NCBI RefSeq assembly: GCF_001412595.2
Contig: NZ_CP012640.2
Coordinates: forward strand, 4,092,001 to 4,156,000
DNA length: 64,000 bases
Source: Massilia sp. WG5
GTDB lineage: Bacteria; Pseudomonadota; Gammaproteobacteria; Burkholderiales; Burkholderiaceae_D
Direction: 5' to 3'
Positions 2,517 through 4,045 of this stretch are shown piece after piece. How positions within the stretch are numbered: position 1 is the stretch's first letter; every line of letters begins with the position of its first letter. The notes under the pieces were generated by a model. It searched no databases, was not told the DNA's origin, and worked only from the letters and a program-made list of their open reading frames with translations. The translations under genes were made by a program, and so were the position numbers.

Positions 2517-2556
2517 ATACTCCTCCTATACTCCATATGGAGTATAAGGAGAGTAT
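2517..2556. promoter_or_regulatory. Four-half-site operator upstream of the RHH regulator
   Basis: A perfect 20-bp palindrome at 2527-2546 (TATACTCCAT mirrored) sits inside a larger array. The heptamers are ATACTCC at 2517, ATACTCC at 2528, GGAGTAT at 2539 and AGAGTAT at 2550. Their starts are exactly 11 bp apart and the array is symmetric about 2536.5. The right half overlaps the Shine-Dalgarno AAGGAG of the gene at 2561. This layout suits cooperative binding by ribbon-helix-helix dimers and therefore autoregulation. A TTGAAA at 2512-2517 may be a -35 element. Confidence 0.75.
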
Positions 2557-2560
2557 ATTC

Positions 2561-2977
2561 ATGAAACTTGTCGAATCCAAACCCAGATTCCCCGATACCG
2601 AAAAGGTCACGATCAACCTCGGCCTGGTCGACCTCGCGCAGATGGACCTGCTGGTCGAGGAGGGCTTCTATACCAACCGCACCGACTTCGTGCGCATGGC
2701 GATCCGCAAGCAGCTGGAGCTGCATGGCGAGGCGATCCGCCAGACCGTGACGCGCAAGCGCTACGTGATGGGCATGCAGCGCTATTCGAAGGCCGAGCTG
2801 GAAAGGACCGTCGCCGCCGGCGAACGGCTCGAGATCCACGTGCTCGGCCTGGCTTCCATCGACGATGACGTCAGCCCTGAACTGGCGCGCGAGGCGATCG
2901 CCTCGCTTCACGTGCTGGGCGCCTTCCTGGCATCCGGCGCCGTCAAGGCGGCGCTCGCCGACCGTATCGCATCCTGA
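2561..2977 (+). CDS. CopG/ribbon-helix-helix family transcriptional regulator (138 aa)
   Basis: The first ~60 residues read like a ribbon-helix-helix DNA-binding unit. There is a beta strand (KVTINLGLVDLAQMDLLV), then a helix-turn-helix pair (EEGFYTNRTDFVRMAIRKQLELH) in the CopG/NikR style. The last ~70 residues (ELERTVAAGERLEIHVLGLASIDDDVSPELAREAI...) form an added domain with no metal-binding pattern that I recognise. The ATG at 2561 follows AAGGAGAG at good spacing; an earlier in-frame ATG at 2537 would lie inside the operator. It precedes the PHB-depolymerase-type gene by 9 bp, so the two are very likely co-transcribed and autoregulated through the site at 2517-2556. Confidence 0.8.
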   Translation: MKLVESKPRFPDTEKVTINLGLVDLAQMDLLVEEGFYTNRTDFVRMAIRKQLELHGEAIRQTVTRKRYVMGMQRYSKAELERTVAAGERLEIHVLGLASIDDDVSPELAREAIASLHVLGAFLASGAVKAALADRIAS

Positions 2978-2986
2978 AGGAACACT

Positions 2987-4045
2987 ATGAAACCTTACGA
3001 ACAATTTGTCGAAAACATACTCGGCGCGGTGCGCTCCGGCCAGGGCAAGGACCCGGCCGCGGCCACGGCACTCATCCAGGAAGCCTTGCAAAAGGCGGGC
3101 CTGTTGACGACCGCGCAGCCGGCCGCACGCACGGGCGGCATGCCTTTTCCCGACCTGAAGGGCATGCCGGCCTGGAACCGCGCTACGGCAAGGACGGAAC
3201 GCGGCGCGGACACGCTCGGCGCCGGCGCCTTCCTGCACGGCAGCTATACCAACGAAGCCGGCACCCGCAATTACCGCCTCTACGTGCCTTCCAGCCCCAG
3301 CCCCGGACCGCGTCCGCTGCTGGTGATGCTGCATGGCTGCACGCAGGACCCGGAGGATTTCGCCGCCGGCACCACGATGAACCTGGCGGCCGAGCAAAGC
3401 GGCTGCCTGGTGCTGTACCCGGAGCAGGCCGCCAGCGCCAACCACTCGCAGTGCTGGAACTGGTTCGACAAGGCGCACCAGGAGCGCGGCGCCGGCGAAC
3501 CGGCGATCATCGCCGGCATGACCCGGCAGGTGTTGCGAGAACATGACGGCGACGCGGCGCGCGTGTACGTGGCCGGCCTGTCGGCGGGCGGCGCGATGGC
3601 GGCCGTGATGGCGCAGGCGTATCCCGAGCTGTATGCGGCGGTCGGCGTGCATTCCGGGCTGGCGGCCGGCAGTGCGCGCGACCTGATCACCGGGCTGCAG
3701 GCCATGAAGGGCAATCACCAGGGTGCGCGCCGGCAGGCAGCGGCATCCGGCCGGGTCCGCGCGATCGTCTTCCACGGCGACCGCGACGCCACCGTGCACC
3801 CGTCGAACGGGCAGGCCGTGTACCGCCAGTTCGGCGGCGATGCCTCCCTGACCGAGATCGAGGAGCAGGGCAAGGGCCATGTCCGGGCGATGGTGCTGGA
3901 CGCTGCCGGGCAGGTGGTGGCCGAGCACTGGACCTTGCACGGCGCCGGCCACGCCTGGTCGGGCGGCAGCACGGCCGGTTCGTATGCCGATCCTTCCGGG
4001 CCGAATGCCTCGGCCGAGATGTTGCGCTTTTTCCTCTCACGTTAA
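2987..4045 (+). CDS. PHB depolymerase family esterase (352 aa)
   Basis: This is an alpha/beta-hydrolase of the short-chain polyhydroxyalkanoate depolymerase/feruloyl-esterase group. It shows the oxyanion segment LVMLHGCTQDPEDFA, the lipase box GLSAGG (nucleophile Ser near residue 199), an Asp in FHGDRDATVHPSNG and a C-terminal His in GAGHAWSGG. The first ~85 residues (EQFVENILGAVRSGQG...) are a phasin-like or linker segment and no signal peptide is visible. The enzyme is therefore probably cytoplasmic unless exported by another route. It sits directly behind the RHH regulator (9 bp gap) as a two-gene unit. The true substrate (PHA granule, oligomer or other ester) cannot be read from sequence. 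Confidence 0.85.
   Translation: MKPYEQFVENILGAVRSGQGKDPAAATALIQEALQKAGLLTTAQPAARTGGMPFPDLKGMPAWNRATARTERGADTLGAGAFLHGSYTNEAGTRNYRLYVPSSPSPGPRPLLVMLHGCTQDPEDFAAGTTMNLAAEQSGCLVLYPEQAASANHSQCWNWFDKAHQERGAGEPAIIAGMTRQVLREHDGDAARVYVAGLSAGGAMAAVMAQAYPELYAAVGVHSGLAAGSARDLITGLQAMKGNHQGARRQAAASGRVRAIVFHGDRDATVHPSNGQAVYRQFGGDASLTEIEEQGKGHVRAMVLDAAGQVVAEHWTLHGAGHAWSGGSTAGSYADPSGPNASAEMLRFFLSR

Follow-up and report, generated by a model that had tools for sequence, protein, structure and literature searches.

The window analysed here, a 64,000-nucleotide stretch of the Massilia sp. WG5 genome, contains at positions 2517–2556 a phased array of short half-sites that is very probably the operator of the adjoining RHH_8 autorepressor, placed so as to mask the sigma32-type -10 element of an operon for an intracellular PHA depolymerase. 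The four half-sites are ATACTCC (outer left, 2517–2523) and ATACTCC (inner left, 2528–2534) on the forward strand, followed by GGAGTAT (inner right, 2539–2545) and AGAGTAT (outer right, 2550–2556) on the reverse strand, the last with one mismatch to the other three. They are spaced in steps of 11 bp and are symmetric about 2536.5. A repeat scan agrees with direct reading of the sequence, placing both direct-repeat pairs at a spacing of 11 and aligning 2517–2536 with 2537–2556 as an inverted repeat with 20-nt arms, 85% complementarity and no gap. At the centre lies the putative core operator, a perfect and strandless 20-bp palindrome, TATACTCCATATGGAGTATA (2527–2546). A Shine-Dalgarno-like AAGGAG (2546–2551, forward strand) falls within the operator and shares sequence with the right-hand part of the array. 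The initial annotation of this DNA had given the half-sites, their 11-bp spacing, their symmetry and the palindrome exactly, and had also correctly placed the Shine-Dalgarno under the array.

The array is conserved wherever the regulator gene was compared, distantly related bacteria included. Upstream regions were collected from 110 RHH_8 loci (30 together with 80 named loci) and joined with the window to give 111; because the search of genome contigs kept the best 80 of 210 relatives, the set leans towards close relatives. Counts over 111 loci include L035, which is the same record as L026, and L049, which was left out of protein and promoter counts because its start was misread and yields 8 aa. 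L035 was left out of some counts. All 111 loci of this set carry a phased inverted pair close to ATACTCC (type A) or ACCATCC (type B). Scored out of 14, the inner pair reaches 14 in 57 loci, 13 in 39, 12 in 12, 11 in 2 and 10 in 1, so that 108/111 score at least 12, compared with 0.18% of 1110 dinucleotide shuffles. As the half-site consensus was derived from the same 111 loci, 18 further loci were scored, of which four are repeats (L145, L147, L148 and L149). In this small check, a score of 12 or more is reached by 12 of the 14 fresh loci outside the consensus; the other two score 10 and, in the case of L131, 8. The low score of L131 comes from a start misplaced by the script, and GCCATCC-N4-AGATGGC is visible there by eye.

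Phasing extends beyond the inner pair. An outer half-site matching at least 5 of 7 positions lies at 11 bp on the left in 15/23 and on the right in 17/23 type A loci, and in 54/86 and 57/86 type B loci respectively, while among the remaining spacings between 7 and 16 none accounts for more than 7 loci. The same preference is retained in a thinned set of 32 loci with less than 80% protein identity, with 16 left and 22 right outer half-sites at 11 bp and at most 3 elsewhere. Half-sites beyond these four again fall at 11 bp, in 17 and 16 of 109 loci on the two sides, with neighbouring offsets giving no more than 3. Given that at least three half-sites are present in 104/109 loci and that further sites keep to 11 bp, the four in the window are one case of a flexible array, mostly of three to five half-sites across the family. 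Comparison of orthologous RHH-esterase loci, which the initial annotation had proposed as the means of judging its operator, thus finds the half-sites conserved with the same 11-bp phasing; their number is not fixed at four.

The gene immediately behind the array (2561–2977, forward strand) encodes a 138-residue RHH_8 regulator, in which profile PF17723 and an AlphaFold2 model (mean pLDDT 81.7) place an N-terminal ribbon-helix-helix and a C-terminal alpha/beta domain. The match to PF17723 is full length (profile 1–119 of 119; 168.2 bits, cut-off 25.4). Scores against NikR (NF002815; 14.7 bits, cut-off 83) and CdrS (NF058555; 20 bits, cut-off 100) remain below threshold, and a Pfam scan up to E = 1, which gives RHH_8 only, detects no PhaR domain. 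Orthologues share the start at 2561, and the in-frame ATG at 2537 inside the array is probably not the start in use. Among the predicted strand residues of the RHH domain, K15, T17 and N19 are invariant in 109/109 compared proteins. A structure-model alignment covered 59 of the 80 named loci together with the window. The C-terminal domain gave no convincing match in searches for relatives; by eye, residues 90–100 and 113–123 form two strands with similar VLG motifs, which suggests an internal beta-alpha repeat. RHH_8 is common in the genus, where it is found in 37/37 genomes searched, and patchy outside it, with matches in only 2/24 other genomes of the order and 8/274 of the class (the genus and class counts include the genome studied here). 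The closest named relatives are Massilia. RHH_8 family matches were also returned by the archaeon Methanocaldococcus jannaschii, a control genome in the surveys.

Nine nucleotides downstream of the regulator, a second forward-strand gene (2987–4045) encodes a 352-residue type 1 short-chain-length PHA depolymerase-type esterase without an evident signal peptide. It scores 310.9 bits against NF050058, the type 1 scl-PHA depolymerase family (cut-off 150), and 128.3 bits against PF10503 (cut-off 23). The translation contains a lipase-box-like GLSAG, PHA hydrolysis is predicted, and among solved structures the closest in sequence is 8daj, an esterase of the PHB depolymerase family (E 9e-71). Such an esterase follows the RHH_8 gene on the same strand in 106/111 loci and in 18/18 of the further loci, with a median gap of 22 nt over 105 measurable pairs. 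Of the remaining loci, L020, L092 and L106 offer only 63, 30 and 366 nt of DNA at that place, and L052 and L096 have RHH_8 and the operator but no PHB-type esterase in more than 2 kb downstream. A ParD-type toxin-antitoxin system was considered and ruled out, as the next gene in these 106 loci is an esterase and not a toxin. By a crude hydropathy test with esterase starts picked by script, 0/105 esterases, that of the window included, have a signal-peptide-like stretch (12-residue mean hydropathy above 2 in the first 41 residues), and the enzyme therefore looks intracellular despite the word 'extracellular' in the NF050058 family name. An Azospirillum plasmid record annotates the regulator as 'CopG family transcriptional regulator' and its neighbour as 'PHB depolymerase family esterase', and RHH_8-esterase pairs lie in plasmids of C. 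necator N-1 and C. campinensis. The Massilia sp. WG5 genome itself holds 2 matches to the PHA synthase family and 4 to Esterase_PHB, 3 of these above 129 bits.

Operator sequence and regulator change together. ATACTCC is confined to one Massilia-type clade and ACCATCC is found elsewhere; the type A proteins form a single clade (SH-aLRT 100) that requires one change on a quick tree. In the comparison of the two types, from which the mixed locus L055 was left out, all 23 type A proteins (L026 and L035 being one record) have Ala at residue 26 and Leu at residue 22; the 86 type B proteins all have Gly at 26, and 84 of them carry Y, P, F, V or M at 22. Since positions 16, 44, 84, 101 and 123 likewise separate the clades, residues 22 and 26 are clade signatures and candidate specificity residues only. 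L055, from Noviherbaspirillum suwonense, has one ATACTCC facing GGATGGT and a protein with Leu22 and Gly26, and seems to stand midway between type A and type B. In the genome studied here (6.2 Mb), ATACTCC-N4-ATACTCC occurs exactly once and the ATACTCC-N4-GGAGTAT palindrome in one place, with 0 matches for either reversed-pattern control; when as many as 3 mismatches are allowed, the window yields 3 hits for the tandem pattern, 2 of which are the two halves of the array, where shuffled sequence gives 0.87 on average. Over 41 genomes, the exact type A palindrome is present in 10, in one place each and with RHH_8 adjoining in 10/10. The exact type B palindrome is present in 8, with RHH_8 adjoining in 6 and elsewhere in 2. 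One site per genome favours a dedicated regulator. Because the array is conserved, unique in the genome and shifts in sequence with the RHH clade, it is likely to be read by the adjoining RHH protein, with both genes as the likely targets.

The array also overlaps promoter-like elements. Sigma32 (RpoH) recognises heat-shock promoters of the consensus CTTGAAA-N13/14-CCCCATNT. The forward strand of the window has a -35-like CTTGAAA at 2511–2517 and, at 2531–2538, a -10-like CTCCATAT that joins the last bases of a half-site to the spacer after it; against that consensus CTTGAAA-N13-CTCCATAT agrees at 7/7 and 7/8 specified-or-N positions with a spacer of 13. In a survey of spacings, CTTG-N18-C[CT]ATNT is present in 35/110 loci and other spacings from 6 to 31 give 0–4, a signal that falls on thinning to 6/32 loci, with N19 next best at 3. 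CTTG occurs at the distance seen in the window from the inner half-site in 19/24 type A loci (L026 and L035 being one record and L055 mixed) and 4 type B loci; type A loci mostly have CCANNT rather than CCATNT as the -10-like hexamer. Across the family the register of CTTG from the inner half-site is -17, -28, -39 or -32 in 23, 14, 11 and 13 loci. Since successive values among the first three are 11 bp apart, the -10-like hexamer is each time formed by a half-site end and its spacer. The dnaK promoter of this genome contains CTTG-N18-CTATAT, with similar elements at groES and one hsp20 gene; in all, 3/6 heat-shock-family genes looked at have a sigma32-like element and 3/6 do not, and the strict pattern occurs at two other places that are not heat-shock-gene-like. 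A sigma70-like TTG[AC][CA]N-N16..18-TANNNT fits 23/111 loci, other Massilia-type loci among them, so that use of sigma32 can be no more than a trait of particular clades. Several loci of the same genus (Massilia-type L003, L004, L010, L011, L014–L016, L018, L020, L021 and L024) combine an ACCATCC-type operator with a sigma70-like TTGAC-type promoter and have no sigma32-like one. Use of sigma32 at this promoter appears somewhat likely; it is graded below the operator reading because of the 6/32 loci left by thinning, the 23/111 sigma70-like fits and the three heat-shock genes that lack the element. Transcription would start near 2545 (2544–2546), about 7 bp behind the -10 element. A DUF2905 gene (2208–2507) ends 4 nt before CTTGAAA, and read-through from it would transcribe the palindrome.

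It is possible, although we consider it doubtful, that the array is the RHH_8 operator over an ordinary sigma70 promoter and that the likeness to sigma32 is a by-product of a half-site ending in CC and followed by ATAT. The -10-like hexamer does overlap operator sequence, and the sigma70-like fits and the weaker spacing signal after thinning point the same way. However, CTTG lies outside the operator sequence, yet its 18-bp spacing is kept in all four registers, and promoter scans list no sigma70-type match at the window promoter.

A different explanation would have the array act mainly as RNA, with upstream transcripts such as that of the DUF2905 gene forming a hairpin in which the Shine-Dalgarno is sequestered until heat opens it, in the manner of an RNA thermometer. 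If transcribed, RNA 2517–2580 would indeed fold at -21.2 kcal/mol (z -4.3) with the Shine-Dalgarno paired, and opposed N4 spacers in type B loci pair at 0.491 against 0.430 when reshuffled (p 0.004, uncorrected for relatedness). Such a hairpin is nevertheless disfavoured because it needs both outer arms, whereas outer-arm scores correlate negatively in type A (r -0.54, n 22, p 0.003), with r -0.28 (p 0.06) in the thinned set and r -0.23 in type B. Type A spacers pair no more than expected by chance (0.602 against 0.558, p 0.15), and additional half-sites, where present, continue the tandem row at 11 bp to one side. Transcription begun by sigma32 near 2545 would moreover leave the palindrome untranscribed as a hairpin, which could form only in read-through transcripts, and RNA 2545–2600 has no unusual structure. 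We regard the RNA explanation as very unlikely. That the array is read by a regulator other than RHH_8 is likewise very unlikely, as the site and the RHH_8 gene travel together across genomes and the operator code switches with the RHH_8 clade.

Our results favour a model where RHH_8 represses both the gene that encodes it and the next one, for the intracellular PHA depolymerase. From the comparisons above we infer binding, repression, sigma32 use and an inducer. RHH dimers would occupy adjacent half-sites, each a helical turn from the next, so as to line one face of the DNA, with the two rows facing each other head to head across the central palindrome. The bound array would block the -10 element and the transcription start of the sigma32-type promoter beneath it, where a half-site and its spacer would together supply the -10, and would extend to the ribosome-binding site. 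Release of the repressor may follow some signal, perhaps through the C-terminal domain, and heat or proteotoxic stress would add sigma32. The initial annotation had proposed that the regulator represses itself and the esterase by covering promoter and Shine-Dalgarno together. A conserved, genome-unique and phased array whose code follows the RHH clade supports that proposal, and overlap with promoter-like elements is apparent; the promoter itself had been missed and is sigma32-like rather than sigma70-like, and the interpretation is refined by an intracellular-looking esterase and a variable number of half-sites.

Taken further, these features may tentatively be joined into a broader picture, which as a whole we think unlikely to hold in every part. 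Across Proteobacteria, RHH_8 would be a widespread switch dedicated to intracellular PHB mobilisation and gated by stress, with half-sites doubling as the sigma32 -10 and the promoter shifted along the array in 11-bp steps between clades. One clade would have recoded ACCATCC to ATACTCC, a natural experiment in RHH specificity, and the C-terminal domain would sense PHB, its oligomers or the granule surface. If such a stress-gated switch operates, intracellular type 1 depolymerases gain a condition of use, and a dedicated repressor would suggest that they are normally shut off. Should the sigma32 part hold, a storage-polymer depolymerase would be tied to the heat-shock response. RHH_8 itself, a family for which we found no described function, would thereby acquire a target and an operator, along with a code that can be put to the test on natural variants occurring in pairs.

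In the open-access literature searched, nothing was found on what RHH_8 does, which genes it controls or where it binds, and the passages on RpoH and depolymerases examined there gave no account of such a switch. In public plasmid records the family to which the window regulator is a full-length match is called 'CopG family transcriptional regulator'. On the enzyme side, PhaZd1/PhaZd2 (PhaZ6/PhaZ7) of Ralstonia eutropha are listed as e-dPHAscl with a type 1 catalytic domain (PMC3430594); the window esterase shares this class label. PhaR is a PHB-responsive protein that binds PHB. It is described as a repressor of phasin genes (PMC12849132), and to that extent resembles RHH_8 in outline as a repressor dedicated to PHA-granule-related genes; RHH_8 is not homologous to it by Pfam, and the target here is a depolymerase. 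In structure the regulator matches autorepressors of the Arc/MetJ/CopG/ParD type. It differs from these in having a depolymerase rather than a toxin as its partner gene, in its C-terminal alpha/beta domain and in an array of mostly three to five half-sites.
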